21,486 bases of DNA from a virus, in IMG/VR virus record IMGVR_UViG_3300008117_007513, positions 1 to 21,486 of that record; one strand, 5' to 3'. Below are positions 1-7,972 of the stretch, piece by piece. Position 1 is the first letter of the stretch; each line of letters begins with the position of its first letter. The notes beneath the pieces are model-generated. The model saw only the letters and a program-made list of their open reading frames with translations. It ran no database searches and was not told the DNA's origin. The position numbers and the translations under genes are program-made.

Positions 1-3000
1 AACCAGAAGTACCGATTGTACCTGAAGTTGCAGACGAACCTGAAGATGCTGCTGAACCTGATGACCCACTTTCACCACTTGAACCATTAGAACCTGATGT
101 TCCTGAAGAACCAGCTGTTCCTGAAGAGGCTGAGTCGCCAGAACTTCCTGATGTTCCAGTAGAGCCTGAAGCACCACTTGAACCAGATGTTCCAGTAGAA
201 CCGTTATCACCAGAAGAACCGTTTGTTCCTGAAGAACCAGAAGCGCCTGATTCACCATTTAAACCATTTATACCTGAAGAACCTGAAGATCCAGTTGACC
301 CTGAAGACCCACTTTCACCACTTTCACCTGAAGTACCAAAACTACCACCATCACCAGATGTACCATCGCTACCTGTAGAACCAGATTCACCCGATTGACC
401 AGATGTCCCAAATGAGCCATCATTACCCGAAGATCCATCGCTACCTGTAGAACCAGATTCACCACTTATTCCTGAAGTTCCTGAAGAACCGTTATCACCG
501 CTTGTACCATCCGATCCTGTACTACCACTTTCACCGCTTATTCCTGATGTACCGTTAGAACCTTCGTTTCCTGATGTACCATCTGATCCAGTTGAACCTG
601 ATTCACCACTTATTCCTGAAGTTCCTGAAGAACCGTTATCACCGCTTGTACCATTTGAACCAGTTGACCCAGAGTCGCCACTTACACCCGATGTACCATT
701 AGAACCATCATTACCTGATGTACCATCTGAACCAGTTGAACCGCTTTCACCTGATAAACCACTTGTACCGTTAGATCCGTTATTACCTGATGTGCCATCA
801 CTACCCGTGCTACCACTTTCACCTGATACACCAGAAGTTCCACTTGAACCATTATCACCAGAAGAACCATCTGAACCAGTTGATCCCGATTCTCCACTTA
901 TACCAGAGGTTCCGTTGGAGCCATCATCACCTGAAGAACCGTTAGTTCCTGAAGAACCTGAAGCTCCGCTTTCACCATTTAAACCATTTATACCTGAAGA
1001 ACCTGAAGATCCAGTTGATCCCGAAGACCCACTTTCGCCAGATTGGCCAGATGTTCCAAATGAACCATCATTACCTGAAGAACCATCTGATCCAGAGGAT
1101 CCAGACTCACCTGATATACCAGATGTTCCAAATGAACCATCATTACCTGAAGATCCATCGCTACCTGTGGAACCAGATTCACCCGATTGACCAGATGTAC
1201 CGTAAGACCCATCAGCCCCACTTGATCCATCTGACCCAGTTGATCCAGACTCACCACTTATTCCTGAAGTCCCATTAGATCCGTCATTACCTGAAGATCC
1301 GTCTGAACCAGTTGAACCACTTTCACCTGATTGACCTGAAGTTCCGTTGGAACCATCGTTACCTGAAGACCCATCTGAACCAGTAGACCCAGATTCACCA
1401 CTTATACCAGAGGTTCCAAAACTACCGTTAGCTCCTGAAGAACCGTCTGAACCAGTTGAACCTGATTCACCACTTATACCAGAGGTTCCGTTAGAACCGT
1501 TATCACCAGAAGAACCGTTAGTTCCTGAAGAACCTGAAGCTCCGCTTTCACCATTTAAACCATTTATACCTGAAGAACCTGAAGATCCAGTTGATCCTGA
1601 GGATCCCGATTCACCACTTTCACCTGAAGTACCAAAACTACCGTCAGCTCCTGAAGAACCATCACTACCCGTGCTACCACTTTCACCTGATTGACCAGAT
1701 GTTCCTGAAGAACCGTCATTACCTGAAGATCCGTCTGAACCTGTGCTACCACTTTCACCGCTTATCCCTGATGTTCCAAATGAACCATCCGCTCCTGAAG
1801 AACCATCTGACCCAGTTGATCCAGACTCACCACTTATTCCTGAAGTACCATTAGATCCGTCATTACCAGATGTACCATCTGATCCAGTAGACCCAGATTC
1901 ACCTGATTGGCCAGAGGTTCCAAATGAACCGTCAGCCCCACTTGATCCATCGGATCCTGAAGACCCAGATTCACCTGATTGGCCAGAGGTTCCAAATGAA
2001 CCGTCAGCCCCACTTGATCCATCGGATCCTGTAGAACCAGATTCACCTGATTGGCCAGAAGTACCAAAAGATCCATCATTACCTGAAGAACCTGAAGATC
2101 CAGTTGATCCCGATTCTCCACTTATTCCTGAAGTTCCATTAGATCCGTCATTACCTGAAGATCCGTCTGAACCTGTGCTACCACTTTCACCACTTATTCC
2201 TGAAGTCCCATTTGAGCCATTATCGCCTGATGTACCATCTGAACCAGTTGATCCTGACTCGCCAGATTGGCCAGAAGTACCAAAAGATCCATCATTACCT
2301 GAAGACCCATCTGATCCAGTAGACCCAGATTCACCCGATTGACCAGAGGTTCCAAATGAACCATCATTACCTGAAGACCCATCTGAACCTGTGCTACCGC
2401 TTTCACCCGATTGACCAGAAGTACCATTTGATCCGTCATTACCTGAAGAACCATTGGATCCGTTTGATCCCGATTCACCACTTATTCCTGAAGTTCCATC
2501 AACACCATCAACACCATCAACACCATTTGTACCAGAAGTACCACTTTCACCTGATGTACCAGATTCACCCGATGAACCACTTTCACCAGATTGGCCAGAT
2601 GTACCGTTAGAACCATCCGCTCCTGAAGAACCATCTGAACCAGTAGACCCAGATTCACCACTTATACCAGAGGTTCCTGAAGAACCGTCATTACCACTAC
2701 TACCATCACTACCAGTTGAACCAGATTCCCCTGAAGTCCCGTTAACGCCTGTTGTACCAGAATCACCGTCCGAACCGTTAGTTCCTGAAGAACCTGAAGC
2801 TCCGCTTTCACCATTTAAACCATTTATACCTGAAGAACCTGAAGACCCAGTTGATCCTGAAGACCCACTTTCGCCAGATTCACCTGAAGTTCCATTTGAA
2901 CCATTATCACCACTACTACCATCACTACCTGTACTACCACTTTCTCCACTTACCCCTGAAGTTCCTGAAGAACCATCATTACCTGATGATCCATCTGATC

Positions 3001-4462
3001 CTGTACTACCGCTTTCACCACTTATACCTGAAGTTCCGTTGGAACCATCGTTACCGCTTTCACCTGATGTACCATTACTGCCTGATTCACCAGAAATACC
3101 TGAAGTACCAAAACTACCATCATTACCACTTGACCCATCTGATCCTGTTGATCCCGATTCACCACTTATACCAGAGGTTCCGTTAGAACCACTTTCTCCA
3201 CTTATTCCTGAAGTTCCTGAAGAACCATCATTACCACTAGATCCGTCAGACCCTGTTGAACCTGATTCACCAGAAATACCTGAAGTACCAAAACTACCGT
3301 CAGCTCCTGAAGAACCATCTGATCCTGTTGACCCAGATTCACCAGAAATACCAGAAGTTCCATTGGAACCATCGGCACCACTTTCACCTGAAGTACCAGT
3401 TGACCCTGATTCACCTGAAACACCTGAAGTACCATTAGAACCATCGTTACCGCTTATCCCACTTGTGCCATCAACACCATCAACACCATCAATACCATTT
3501 GTACCAGAAGTACCAGATTGACCACTCGTACCATCATTTCCTGTGCTACCAGATTCACCTGATATACCTGATGTTCCATTTGAACCATCCGCTCCTGAAG
3601 AACCATCTGAACCAGTACTACCAGATTCACCACTTACTCCTGAAGTCCCTGAAGATCCGTCATTACCTGATGTGCCATCACTACCAGTTGAACCTGATTC
3701 ACCACTTATACCAGAGGTTCCGTTGGAACCATCTGCTCCTGAAGAACCGTCAGAGCCAGTTGAACCACTTTCTCCACTTATTCCTGAAGTTCCTGAAGAA
3801 CCATCATTACCACTTTCACCTGATGTGCCATTACTACCACTTTCTCCACTTAAACCTGAGGTTCCGTTACTACCATCATTACCCGATGTACCATCTGATC
3901 CTGTTGACCCAGATTCGCCAGACATCCCCGAAGTTCCGTTGGAGCCATCGGCACCGCTTTCACCTGAAGTACCAGTGCTACCTGATTCACCACTTATCCC
4001 TGAAGTTCCTGAAGAACCATCATTACCACTACTACCATCACTACCATTACTACCTGATTCTCCAGAAACACCAGATGTACCATCAGAACCACTCAAACCC
4101 GAATAACCTGAAGTACCAGCTGTACCAGAAGTACCTGTTAATAAAGGTGAATATGAATATTCACCAGTAGCTGCATTAAACGACACAAAATAGTTCGGTG
4201 AACTATTTTCGGTCATTCCTGTAACAAATAACTCATTTAAAATATAAACACCCTTAAGATCTTGGGTGTTTTCCCACTGTCCAGTGGTATCGTTCCAAAC
4301 TAAAATGTCCCCTTCATTGGGGCCACTAATTACAACGTCAGATAGATCATCTATTCCAAGATTTTCTATAACGTCTTTTATATTTTGGAAGTTAGCATCT
4401 AATTCCGCATAGGATAGTGCCCTTCCTAGATCGTCTCTAAGATAAATTGTTACTGTTGCCAT
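1..4462 (-). CDS. Collagen-like (Gly-X-Y) phage tail fibre protein, 3' end outside window
   Basis: About 1,487 codons are visible from the ATG at 4462-4460, and the frame stays open to the left edge, so the C-terminus is missing. The first ~110 residues are not collagenous: they begin MATVTIYLRDDLGRALSYAE and contain LSYAELDANF and a segment reading SGPNEGDILVWNDTTGQW, both of a kind common at the N-terminus of phage fibre and appendage proteins. From about 4133 down to 1 almost every third residue is Gly. X and Y are mostly Ser, Thr, Asp, Glu, Asn and Ile, and I see no proline. This should form an extended trimeric fibre or a polyglycine-type rod; host-adhesion role is inferred. Near the visible end three Gly positions are replaced by Ala (codons at 29, 47 and 128). 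A late-type promoter and an inverted repeat lie at its start. Function as a fibre is an inference; the collagen-like repeat is directly visible. Confidence 0.85.
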   Translation of the reverse strand, partial: MATVTIYLRDDLGRALSYAELDANFQNIKDVIENLGIDDLSDVVISGPNEGDILVWNDTTGQWENTQDLKGVYILNELFVTGMTENSSPNYFVSFNAATGEYSYSPLLTGTSGTAGTSGYSGLSGSDGTSGVSGESGSNGSDGSSGNDGSSGTSGISGESGSTGTSGESGADGSNGTSGMSGESGSTGSDGTSGNDGSNGTSGLSGESGSNGTSGESGNDGSSGTSGISGESGSTGSDGSSGADGSNGTSGISGESGSTGSDGTSGNDGSSGTSGVSGESGSTGSDGSSGADGSNGTSGISGESGSTGNDGTSGQSGTSGTNGIDGVDGVDGTSGISGNDGSNGTSGVSGESGSTGTSGESGADGSNGTSGISGESGSTGSDGSSGADGSFGTSGISGESGSTGSDGSSGNDGSSGTSGISGESGSNGTSGISGESGSTGSDGSSGNDGSFGTSGISGESGSNGTSGESGNDGSNGTSGISGESGSTGSDGSSGNDGSSGTSGVSGESGSTGSDGSSGDNGSNGTSGESGESGSSGSTGSSGSSGINGLNGESGASGSSGTNGSDGDSGTTGVNGTSGESGSTGSDGSSGNDGSSGTSGISGESGSTGSDGSSGADGSNGTSGQSGESGSSGESGTSGESGTSGTNGVDGVDGVDGTSGISGESGSNGSNGSSGNDGSNGTSGQSGESGSTGSDGSSGNDGSFGTSGQSGESGSTGSDGSSGNDGSFGTSGQSGESGSTGSDGTSGDNGSNGTSGISGESGSTGSDGSSGNDGSNGTSGISGESGSTGSSGSSGNDGSFGTSGQSGESGSTGSDGSSGADGSFGTSGQSGESGSSGSDGSSGADGSFGTSGQSGESGSTGSDGTSGNDGSNGTSGISGESGSTGSDGSSGADGSFGTSGISGESGSTGSDGSSGNDGSSGTSGQSGESGSTGSDGSSGADGSFGTSGESGESGSSGSTGSSGSSGINGLNGESGASGSSGTNGSSGDNGSNGTSGISGESGSTGSDGSSGANGSFGTSGISGESGSTGSDGSSGNDGSNGTSGQSGESGSTGSDGSSGNDGSNGTSGISGESGSTGSDGSSGADGSYGTSGQSGESGSTGSDGSSGNDGSFGTSGISGESGSSGSDGSSGNDGSFGTSGQSGESGSSGSTGSSGSSGINGLNGESGASGSSGTNGSSGDDGSNGTSGISGESGSTGSDGSSGDNGSSGTSGVSGESGSTGSDGTSGNNGSNGTSGLSGESGSTGSDGTSGNDGSNGTSGVSGDSGSTGSNGTSGDNGSSGTSGISGESGSTGSDGTSGNEGSNGTSGISGESGSTGSDGTSGDNGSSGTSGISGESGSTGSDGSSGNDGSFGTSGQSGESGSTGSDGTSGDGGSFGTSGESGESGSSGSTGSSGSSGINGLNGESGASGSSGTNGSSGDNGSTGTSGSSGASGSTGTSGSSGDSASSGTAGSSGTSGSNGSSGESGSSGSAASSGSSATSGTIGTSG
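2..4133 (-). repeat. Gly-X-Y coding repeat with 72-nt higher-order period
   Basis: The 9-nt Gly-X-Y unit is organised in blocks of eight triplets (72 nt, 24 residues). A typical block begins GISGESGSTGSDGSS and continues with (N/A)D, S(N/F) and TS triplets. The DNA word cttatt falls at 465, 537 and 609, exactly 72 nt apart, and two almost identical 72-nt units lie back to back at about 1905-2050. Rarer modules sit in the same register: a GINGLNGESGASGSSGTNG module anchored at 255, 975, 1551 and 2811 (spacings 720, 576 and 1260, all multiples of 36), and a GVDGVDGVDG module at about 2496 and 3468 (972 apart, also a multiple of 36). This suggests growth by unequal exchange in 36/72-nt steps. 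Confidence 0.85.
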
Positions 4463-4529
4463 TTATATATGTTAGTTTAAACTACTAACATATAAATAGT
4501 ATCAAATACTAATAAGGCAACAGTAACAA
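4447..4529 (-). promoter_or_regulatory. Inverted repeat that could mask the start of the fibre gene in readthrough mRNA
   Basis: The 14-nt arms at 4447-4460 and 4516-4529 are perfect inverted copies separated by 55 nt. In the fibre mRNA the downstream arm is the G of the AUG plus codons 2-5 and part of codon 6; the upstream arm is its exact complement. The late-type element at 4491-4498 lies in the loop, so a transcript starting there would lack the upstream arm. T4 genes such as e and the td-intron gene I-TevI are controlled by hairpins of this design. The arms and positions are seen; the regulatory role is inferred. Confidence 0.55.
4491..4498 (-). promoter_or_regulatory. Late-type promoter element TATTTATA of the fibre gene
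   Basis: On the minus strand TATTTATA ends 28 nt before the fibre ATG. The same octamer, or a one-base variant of its last position, is found upstream of several other genes in this window, mostly structural-type ones. A T4-like late promoter with a single -10-type box is the closest known model, though T4 uses TATAAATA. Inferred from recurrence only. Confidence 0.45.
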
Positions 4530-4549: not shown

Positions 4550-6943
4550 TTATTCTGTGATGTTAACGTTTATTTTTTCACTCTTAATATTATAAGTTAA
4601 ACTTATTTTACCAGATTTAGGCATTTGTTTACGTAACATTTCGTCTGAAATCGGGTCCTCTACATATTTCTGTATGGTTCTTTGGATTTCCCTAGCCCCG
4701 TATAGTTTATTAAAACCTTTTTCCAAAATAAATTCTTTAGATTTTTTATCAATTTTAAATGTAAACCCAACATTTTTTAAGTGATTTTCAAAATCCTTTA
4801 ATTGTAAATCAATAATTTTAACAACATCATCTTGTGTTAGATAATTAAAATAAACAATTTCATCCAAACGATTAATAAATTCTGGTTTAAAAGTTTTCTT
4901 AAGGTTTTTTTCAATAATACTTTTTGAGTTTACAATCGCATCCGCTTCAGAATCATTAAAACCGATTTTAGTACCAAAATCTTGAACCTCTTTCAAACCG
5001 ATATTTGATGTCATGATGATAATGGTATTTTTGAAATTAATTTTTCTACCGTTAGCATCGGTTAAATAACCCTCATCAAGTAATTGAAGCATAACATTGA
5101 AAATATCTGGGTGAGCCTTTTCAATCTCATCAAATAAAACCAAAGAATATGGTTTATTTTTAACTTTCTCCGTTAATTGACCACCTTCGTTATACCCAAC
5201 ATAACCTGGGGGTGCCCCAATTAACTTACTAATATTAAATTTTTCGGAGTATTCGGACATATCGACACGGATAATAGCATCTTGAGAACCAAAAACTTTT
5301 TCAGCTAAACATTTTGCTAATTCTGTTTTACCAACACCAGTTGGTCCAATAAATAAGAATGAACCGATTGGTTTAGATTGTTTTCTAATACCAGTTCTAT
5401 TTCTTTTGATTGATGAAACAACTTTATCGATTGCATCTGATTGACCAATAACACAATTAGCCAATTCACCATCCATTGATAATAATCTTGTTACCTCATT
5501 CTCAGAGACTTTACTAACAGGTATACCCGTCATCATTGATACTACTTCGGAGATCATATCATCCGTCACAATATTTCTTTTATCATTAATCGATAACTTC
5601 CACATTGAATTTTCTTTATCTAACTCGGTAAGAATTTTTTTCTCTTGATCACGAAGCTGCGCTGCCTGCTCAAAATTTTGGGTTTTAACAACTTGTTGTT
5701 TTTGATCCTTAATCTCTTTTAACTTAAGTTCAAGATCCTTTATTTTTTGTGGTGCCTTAACCGAACGATCAGCCAATGCGATAATTTCATCAATAGCCTC
5801 TTCAGTGTATGTTACTTTATGGAAATCTTCGTATTTCTCTTTAATATTCATAAGGATTTCTTTAGTCTCACTTAAGATTGGTGGGTTAACCATAACTTTT
5901 TGGAATCTTCTATCTAAAGCACCATCCTTTTCAATATGCTCACGATATTCATCAAGAGTTGTTGCACCAATACATTGGAGTTCTCCACGGGCTAATGCGG
6001 GTTTAAATACGTTTGCAGCGTCTAACGAACCCGATGAATTACCAGCACCAACAATTGTATGTAATTCATCAATGAAAAGAATCACATTTGGGTTATCTTT
6101 AGCCTCATCAACAATAGCTTTAATTCTCTCCTCAAACTGACCACGATATTTTGTACCAGCAACCAACGATGTCATATCTAATGTTACAACACGTTTGTTC
6201 ATTAGAGGCCTTGGGCAATCACCGTTCGCAATTTTAATTGCTAAACTTTCAGCGATAGCTGTCTTACCAACACCTGGATCACCAATAAGAATCGGGTTAT
6301 TTTTCTTTCTTCTTGTTAAAATTTGACAAACCCTCTCAACCTCAGATGCACGACCTATTACAGGATCTAATTTACCTTCTTGTGCTAAAACAGTTAAATC
6401 ACGACCAAAATTATCTAATGTCGGTGTTTTTGATTTAATATTTTTATTTGCCTCGTTTAATGGTTTCCTATCTCTAGGTAACTCATCATCATTAGAGAAT
6501 ACGCTGGCTTGTGGTGTTGATAATTGTTTAATTTTCTTAGCGATAAAAGTTTTTGTTAAACCATATTCCTTAAAAAGTTTAACAATCGCATTATCTTTTT
6601 CCATTGAGATTAGAAAGAAAAGCTCAACAGTGATGTAGTCGGTTGGCTTTTTCCTTACGATACACTCTTTAATTATTTCTTGAAGATCTGACTCAAAAGG
6701 TAAGATACCATCTTGTTTACCATTAGATGAATCGGAAAGCCTCTTATTAATGTCATTTAAGTCATTAACCATCACATCAAAATCCAATACTTTGTTTTTG
6801 ACAACCTCATAAATCATATTCTCAGTAGTAAGGATACCGAATATAACATGTTGTAACCTAAGCATCGAGTCATCATACTTAATTGCCACGGATTGCCCCC
6901 TAGTAAAGGCGCTTCTTAACTCATTTGTCATTCTTTCTTTCAT
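4550..6943 (-). CDS. ClpC-type AAA+ protein unfoldase with shortened D1 small domain
   Basis: Protein of 797 residues. A Clp N-terminal domain (about 1-140) is followed by AAA+ module D1 with Walker A GDPGVGKT at 221-228 and Walker B VILFIDE at 287-293, and an arginine-finger region DRRF near 344. A ClpC-like middle coiled coil (about 400-445) contains the UVR-type stretch [12 protein letters not shown]. Module D2 has Walker A GPTGVGKT at 533-540, Walker B LVLFDE at 601-606, sensor 1 MTSN at 645-648 and the C-terminal domain with [14 protein letters not shown] at 660-662 sits where ClpC/ClpA carry the loop that docks on ClpP, so pairing with host ClpP is plausible; no ClpP gene is in the window. 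The usual LPDKAIDxxDEA segment between D1 and the middle domain is absent. Start at MKERM follows a Bacteroidota-type promoter with a 20-nt leader. Role in degrading or remodelling host or virion proteins is inferred. Confidence 0.93.
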
Positions 6944-6963: not shown

Positions 6964-6994
6964 CAAAGATAGTAATAATCTTGACATAACCAAA
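6964..6994 (-). promoter_or_regulatory. Bacteroidota-type promoter of the clpC-like gene
   Basis: On the minus strand TTTG (6994-6991), a 19-nt spacer and TATCTTTG (6971-6964) match the Bacteroidota vegetative consensus TTTG-N19-21-TAnnTTTG. The box ends 20 nt before the ATG at 6943. It overlaps the opposing promoter at 6980-7011. Confidence 0.7.
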
Positions 6995-7507: not shown

Positions 7508-7972
7508 ATGTACGTTGATATAAGATATGAGTCAAGAGCCAACATAACCTTTCATAACATGGCTAAGGTTTCCATACGTGGTAACCAAAATTACCTTGTT
7601 AAATGGTATTATAATGATGAGTTTTTTGGTGAAATGTTTTTAAACGGTGGAACCTGGGGAGCCTATCCGATGAATGAAATAGGGCATTGGAAAATTGAAT
7701 TTTGGCAAGAGGGTAGATTAGTCTACACTTACACCAACATGCTAGAAAAAAACAATATCTTAATATTGTTTGAAAATGACGGTAACGATTTTGGCGAATT
7801 TGCTAAAAAAGTTAAAGAATATTCAGATGACCTATCCGATAGATACGGTTGTAATACGTTTGTTTTTTTTAAAAATTCAGAATTATGTGATTTTAGTGAG
7901 CATAAAGGTATTCCATTAAGATTAAACGATGATATTAACAGTTTTAAAATTATTTATAACAAAAAATTATGA
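7508..7972 (+). CDS. Hypothetical protein, 154 aa
   Basis: Starts MYVDIRYESRANITFHNMAK. The first ~90 residues are rich in aromatic residues and look beta-stranded (WYYNDEFFGEMFLNGGTWG, WKIEFWQEGRLVYTYTN). The last ~60 residues look alpha/beta with KKVKEYSDDLSDRYGCNTF. No signal peptide or membrane segment and no motif I recognise. It lies 3 nt after the KTSC gene and its stop overlaps the next start as ATGA (7969-7972), so it is most likely translated together with the 2OG-Fe(II) oxygenase. A partner or substrate role for that enzyme is possible but only suggested by the overlap. Confidence 0.7.
   Translation: MYVDIRYESRANITFHNMAKVSIRGNQNYLVKWYYNDEFFGEMFLNGGTWGAYPMNEIGHWKIEFWQEGRLVYTYTNMLEKNNILILFENDGNDFGEFAKKVKEYSDDLSDRYGCNTFVFFKNSELCDFSEHKGIPLRLNDDINSFKIIYNKKL

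Follow-up and report, generated by a model that had tools for sequence, protein, structure and literature searches.

How might a phage delay synthesis of a very long tail fibre whose gene lies directly behind a gene of apparently early type? This question is raised by IMG/VR virus record IMGVR_UViG_3300008117_007513, positions 1 to 21,486 of which were analysed as one stretch of DNA (hereafter, the window). There, a collagen-like tail-fibre gene (2..4462, minus strand; 1487 amino acids inside the window, open at the window end) has directly upstream of it, on the same strand, a clpC/clpB-like AAA+ protease or chaperone gene (4550..6943), with 87 bases between the clpC-like stop and the fibre start codon (ATG, 4462-4460). 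An inverted repeat runs from this spacer into the first fibre codons. The original prediction for this DNA, made without database searches, likened the repeat to a design known from phage T4, in which read-through RNA hides the start codon and late RNA begins inside the loop. Comparative evidence and the energetics of modelled RNA folds now support such a T4-like design: the element is real and conserved, and we put at roughly three in four the probability that it is a translational lock with a late promoter inside it.

An inverted repeat over the fibre start codon

The repeat consists of two outer arms of 14 nucleotides (nt) each, which are 100% complementary and have 55 nt between them. The left (5') arm, TTGTTACTGTTGCC (4516..4529, minus strand), is noncoding and begins 20 nt past the clpC stop; the right (3') arm, GGCAACAGTAACAA (4447..4460, minus strand), comprises the G of the ATG as its first base, codons 2-5 and the first base of codon 6. 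Both the perfect arms and the overlap of one of them with the gene start had been predicted and are confirmed. They are alone in the 21,486 bases as a perfect inverted repeat with arms of ≥12 nt and a gap of ≤100; 300 first-order Markov copies of the window give chance expectations of 0.44 per copy for 12 nt and 0.027 for 14 nt. Folded as minus-strand RNA, positions 4447-4529 reach -32.7 kcal/mol (z = -7.6), a value that 0/200 shuffles equalled, and a scan of the window against Rfam gave 0 matches at gathering score. The original prediction had described a hairpin; its outer stem stands, but the predicted shape is a three-way junction that holds two hairpins unmentioned earlier. The larger of these (4466..4494, minus strand) has 11-base-pair (bp) arms at 4484-4494 and 4466-4476 around a 7-nt loop, and its left arm begins within the promoter motif discussed below. 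The smaller one (4497..4511, minus strand; 6 bp, loop TTG) differs in the folds of the armed relatives L010, L014, L021 and L022, and was dropped for that reason as a claimed part of the lock.

The degree to which the start region is hidden was expressed as an opening cost, the predicted free energy needed to keep positions -15..+15 around the ATG unpaired, which was calculated for RNAs with different 5' ends. When both outer arms are in the RNA, the opening cost in the window is 21-28 kcal/mol, and it is about 10-11 kcal/mol with the inner hairpin only, 8.6 kcal/mol for a 5' end at -30 and 2.5 kcal/mol for a 5' end at -25, just past the promoter motif TATTTATA. For comparison, 929 script-called open reading frames (ORFs) from 11 sequences have a median of 6.0 and a 99th percentile of 17.2. 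With the upstream 90 bases dinucleotide-shuffled, 0/150 shuffles reached the observed cost in each of the seven armed leaders tested, and the leader of T4 gene e, taken as a control through the same calculation, falls likewise from 16.1 to 4.9 at -20. The ORF script missed the fibre ORFs of the window (because of its open end) and of contigs G002, G005, G007 and G009 (probably because of long antisense ORFs in repeats), and the leaders of missed ORFs were folded separately (window, L014, L016 and L020; G002 shares the window's leader); some script-called ORFs are surely wrong, such as those that overlap tRNA-like sequence.

A G-U wobble on the sense strand corresponds to A-C on the other strand, so the two orientations of a leader can be compared. 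Sense RNA was the more stable in nine of the ten leaders folded both ways (L226 being the exception), several of the differences being small and the comparison having no control set. This predicted difference in stability favours the sense RNA as the working form of the element.

Conservation and recurrence of the design

A search with the fibre N-terminus returned 36 loci, 31 of which (L003-L033) include the start region; the remaining five (L034-L038), weak or inner matches, were set aside. The left arm is kept in 21/31 relatives while its flanks vary, eight of the 21 carrying the window's own leader, and the armed relatives reach down to 60% protein identity. L020 retains 12 outer pairs, and the letters of the inner hairpin differ in L016-L018. 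In L021 and L022, a C-to-T change in the left arm is accompanied by a G-to-A change in the right arm (V4I in the fibre protein), which converts C-G to U-A and keeps the pairing. The original prediction had looked to covarying arms in relatives; one compensated pair is thus present, but no further covarying outer pair was found among the 11 distinct armed rows (including the window) entered in the covariation analysis. Synonymous change is also limited at the start of the gene: eight armed leaders show 0 synonymous differences in codons 2-9, compared to 0.40 per comparable pair in codons 10-35, and three unarmed leaders show 0.27 in codons 2-6, 0 in codons 7-9 and 0.39 in codons 10-35 (counts without L014, L017, L022, L033 and near-duplicates).

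The design is also found with unrelated stems. The leader behind clpC in the 299-kilobase (kb) contig G014 (L054, L222) and the fibre leaders L221-L228 are unrelated to the window's. In these, ACTATTTAT occupies the left arm and loop of a hairpin whose right arm stops two bases before the ATG; the L222 hairpin has 19 pairs, three of them G-U, and the others have some mismatches, with 89% of cells paired. Five distinct leaders of this type cost 11-19 kcal/mol to open, and 0/150 shuffles reach the observed value in L222, L224, L225 and L227. At a second fibre-like gene of G014 (292598-293992), perfect arms of 17 nt enclose a 42-nt loop with a near-match to the motif (ACTATTTATG, TATTTATG), and the right arm extends through the ATG; again, 0/150 shuffles reach its opening cost. 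One ORF lies between this gene and an ORF with an early-type motif. A search for its relatives returned only itself, and its hairpin is thus without a comparative test. Across the 39 related contigs read (a count without L261-L264, and in which L228 is the other end of L227's contig), ACTATTTAT precedes the fibre ATG in a single orientation, at a distance of 22-31 nt wherever representatives were measured. Both the motif and such a fold are missing from L261-L264, four more remote N-terminal matches that lie in a different context.

Two further searches for relatives returned little. A fibre profile matched 0/20 large clpC-bearing contigs, a search that had no positive control and is hence uninformative. 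Among annotated phage records, 109 matched and 0 covered >80% of the query; in the 20 records listed the match is confined to the clpC part, and an annotated relative of the fibre leader was not found that way. The fibre ORFs called behind clpC in six contigs range from 496 to 5,317 codons, the longest (including the stop) being that of G014 immediately downstream of clpC (139607-155557, L207-L208). In contig G010 (L220:17358-19371), a long inverted repeat, ggggacaaaatta, is common to two divergent ORFs and reaches the start codon of each with its arms; the opening costs of these ORFs are 28.7, the highest of the 929 ORFs, and 23.9.

Promoter motifs and the probable host

The original prediction had placed a late promoter in the loop at 4491-4498. 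The position stands, as does membership in a motif class of this phage group, but in coding orientation the motif departs from T4, whose late consensus TATAAATA sits here on the non-coding strand; the coding strand reads TATTTATA (4498-4491, minus strand), inside the outer loop and 28 nt before the ATG. The resemblance to T4 therefore proves nothing about the promoter. Motifs were instead surveyed upstream of ORFs that a script called in the window and ten related contigs of 20-299 kb from IMG/VR. In coding orientation, TATTTATA has 58 matches 10-19 nt before the ATG, compared to 3 for its complement (908 upstream regions in ten sequences). Summed over the 11 sequences, 105/225 copies have an ORF start within 50 nt and read in coding orientation, against 20 in reverse; by contig, the coding and reverse counts near ORFs are 9/16 and 0 in G002, and 4 and 3 in the small G010. 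These motif counts are non-independent, as related contigs share orthologues that are counted repeatedly. TATCTTTG forms a second class, most frequent at 20-29 nt upstream of the ATG, where it has 53 matches and its complement 0. It fits the Bacteroidota-type -7 element TAnnTTTG of the -33/-7 consensus.

Gene content differs between the two classes. In G014, the 20 proteins behind TATTTATA match 21 PHROGs families, including endolysin, head maturation protease, tail tube, head-tail adaptor, tail fibre, chitinase, thioredoxin domain and unnamed families. Among those of the 41 proteins behind TATCTTTG or TTTG-TAnnTTTG are DNA polymerase, primase, helicase, DNA-binding protein and nucleotide metabolism, besides many unnamed families, as read from 25 of the 44; in both cases, the content describes families matched and not the number of proteins matched. 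From their sequence context, TATTTATA and TATCTTTG look like marks of two gene classes, late and early, and TATTTATA, given its position before ORFs and this contrasting gene content, is most readily interpreted as the phage group's late promoter. The clpC-like gene itself has a Bacteroidota-type promoter (6964..6994, minus strand), with TTTG at 6994-6991, a 19-nt gap and TATCTTTG at 6971-6964. Upstream of clpC, exact TATCTTTG is found in 6/11 sequences and the TAnnTTTG variant in three, the promoter being unjudged in the other two (G007 and G012), where the clpC start is mis-called.

Within the window, TATTTATA also lies upstream of the ORFs at 7969, 9465 and 11654, and it is found in the G002-G014 contigs. 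In 169 regions, T makes up 64-76% at 16-18 nt before TATTTATA, perhaps a second promoter element. A core of ACTATTTATA, 2-6 nt and TAGTTTAAA recurs in the fibre leaders of the window, L016, L042, L054 and L224, which otherwise have different stems; by eye, it was not seen at the other late-motif genes listed.

A Bacteroidota host is likely, because the promoter class and a sigma-70 factor encoded by G014 resemble those of Bacteroidota. The latter (L269:1063-1860) is like Bacteroidota RpoD (phrog_351, E 2.2e-56); its best 80 genome matches are 41-47% identical and, judged by title, about 62/80 are Bacteroidota, the rest being mostly Neomarinimicrobiota and KSB1. This factor is a candidate for switching between promoter classes; the same search found no sigma-70 in four other contigs, which are fragments. 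A 237-amino-acid protein of G014 (L270:1357-2070) has a weak match to sigma region 2 (E 3.5e-4, below cut-off) and may be a distant late sigma. As it has neither a PHROGs match nor a relative in 12 other contigs, a T4-like late sigma shared by the group was rejected. A T4-type Gp23 capsid protein was found in one of five contigs, G014.

A proposed translational lock and its alternatives

Several observations weigh against a translational lock. The 31 relatives are non-independent, eight of them sharing the window's leader; a single outer pair covaries, and the covariation score was equalled by 7/500 shuffles, and that of the L221-L228 hairpin type by 222/500. The synonymous freeze extends to codons 7-9, outside the arm, in armed and unarmed groups alike, and is therefore only partly due to the arm, with other constraints acting on the gene start. 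Relatives that keep the start region and lose the arm, which the original prediction had named as evidence against it, do exist: 10/31 (L023-L032, three distinct leaders) lack the left outer arm while keeping TATTTATA and the start region, and in L042 three bases of the left arm are different from those of the window, with loss of pairing. In the former, the promoter sequence itself forms an imperfect hairpin with the start region (9.8-12.7 kcal/mol) that is near chance (reached by 7, 2 and 9 of 150 shuffles), and L042, whose clpC is 91% identical to the window's but whose fibre start is different (MADITIYSR), has no excess structure (45/150 shuffles). L226 is marginal as well (5/150 shuffles).

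Other adverse points concern the energetics and the motifs. Among the 26 T4 leaders for which it was computed, the value of regB (19.3) is above that of e (16.1), and a high opening cost alone is therefore no proof of a lock. ORFs with the late motif are not more structured as a class (n = 108, median 5.9), nor are ORFs behind early-motif ORFs (n = 21, including four fibres; median 7.2 versus 7.6 for 29 with an opposite-strand neighbour). A general rule that late genes behind early genes carry locks is unsupported by these last two medians, and because both classes are unstructured, the proposed lock belongs to the fibre genes of this phage group and not to late genes generally. In the last 10 nt before the ATG, TATTTATA has no advantage over its complement TATAAATA (12 versus 13), and the label 'late' is based on gene content, not timing. 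The terminator scan, moreover, recognises only loops of 3-8 nt.

How do other explanations fare with the same evidence? The structure may be a binding site for a regulatory protein, or act in RNA stability or processing, with the hiding of the start codon as a by-product. The ACTATTTATA/TAGTTTAAA core is more conserved across different stems than a pure lock requires, and the frozen codons 7-9 lie outside the arm; the unrelated stems, however, differ in sequence and have little in common beyond the promoter-like core and their placement over the start region, and we regard this explanation as unlikely. It is very unlikely that the left arm is a functionless inverted copy of the gene start, arisen by chance or mutation. 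The ten unarmed relatives and L042 do manage without it, but the arm persists, with one compensated change, in relatives of as little as 60% protein identity, and both the 0/150 shuffles and the recurrence of the design with unrelated stems speak against chance.

Slightly less credible still is a transcription terminator or attenuator that ends the clpC unit. A strong stem does follow clpC, and UUUAUCUU follows the right arm in the window, but the 55-nt branched loop and weak U-run are atypical and fall short of a compact stem (loop 3-8) with a U-run, and the stems of the other fibre hairpins are not followed by a U-run. The terminator scan found no minus-strand candidate from clpC to the fibre gene, yet with its loop limit it could not have called this one. 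Bacteroidota also carry invertible promoters, in which a promoter lies between short inverted repeats near a gene for a surface structure, and the present motif, between inverted repeats beside a fibre gene in 83 bases that match their own reverse complement at 70%, has the same look. Were the arms recombination sites, the 55-nt loop would flip and switch the fibre on and off. All 39 related contigs read, however, have one orientation; a flip would destroy the ATG, the first two bases of which are part of the loop; no recombinase was found among the window ORFs scanned, a part of the total; and the arms differ in other lineages. An invertible promoter is thus extremely improbable.

Under the translational lock, the motifs suggest that during early or middle infection the clpC-like gene would be transcribed from its host-type promoter and that polymerase would continue into the fibre gene, read-through being expected because no terminator was called in between. 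In the long RNA, according to predicted folding that conservation supports, the left arm would pair with the G of the AUG and the next codons and the inner hairpin would close the leader. Since 30S subunits in Bacteroidota, working without Shine-Dalgarno pairing, would need an open start region, initiation would be blocked. Late in infection, transcription would begin just downstream of TATTTATA, and the late RNA would start too far downstream to include the left outer arm or more than a small part of the left inner arm, and would have its AUG free; the very long fibre could then be made together with other virion parts. Flavobacterium johnsoniae is reported to initiate without Shine-Dalgarno sequences in a manner tuned by structure in the start-codon area (PMC6847099), and such a lock is therefore plausible there.

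The closest parallel, the leader of T4 lysozyme gene e, is one of working only, and homology is not claimed. There, a long early RNA folds over the start region; here, a helix that pairs the start region in upstream-initiated RNA is predicted, and a candidate late promoter in coding orientation, TATTTATA, lies between the arms, its class judged from position and gene content. Unlike in gene e, no Shine-Dalgarno site is seen and it is the AUG and first codons that pair; the predicted structure is a three-way junction that is costlier to open, the gene encodes a giant fibre, and the motif is TATTTATA instead of TATAAATA. As described in two reports (PMC3014915, PMC2988022), the initiation site of I-TevI is sequestered in upstream-initiated RNA and freed by a late promoter immediately upstream, I-TevII, I-TevIII, segB and Aeh1 mobE have similar arrangements, and the initiation sites of T4 soc and 49 are sequestered. 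In contrast to the fibre leader, all of these are homing endonucleases or other genes of T4-type phages with Shine-Dalgarno sites, neither fibres nor from Bacteroidota phages. A search of the literature by title and abstract, mostly outside subscription papers, found no description of a lock of this kind on a fibre start in Bacteroidota phages. By analogy, the element resembles the T4-type lock principle applied to another gene, a fibre, in phages of probable Bacteroidota hosts.

A wider interpretation, which we offer tentatively and at a little short of even odds, is that a lineage of large, T4-related Bacteroidota phages couples its giant fibre genes with a Shine-Dalgarno-free lock on the start codon. 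Unrelated arms would arise around a fixed late-promoter core as fibres swap or diverge, and the lock would have been rebuilt at least three times (as the three-way junction, the hairpin of up to 19 bp and the 17-nt arms of the second fibre gene), selected since an early fibre of about 1,100-5,300 residues would be costly or harmful. On this view, L042 may represent a lineage captured after such a fibre exchange.

If the translational lock is correct, delaying translation by means of a promoter in the loop would be no peculiarity of T4 and would work also with ribosomes that ignore Shine-Dalgarno sequences. The element would then offer a clean test of how far start-codon structure alone controls translation in Bacteroidota, and TATTTATA, as a late promoter motif for an uncultured phage group, would let its late genes be read from sequence.

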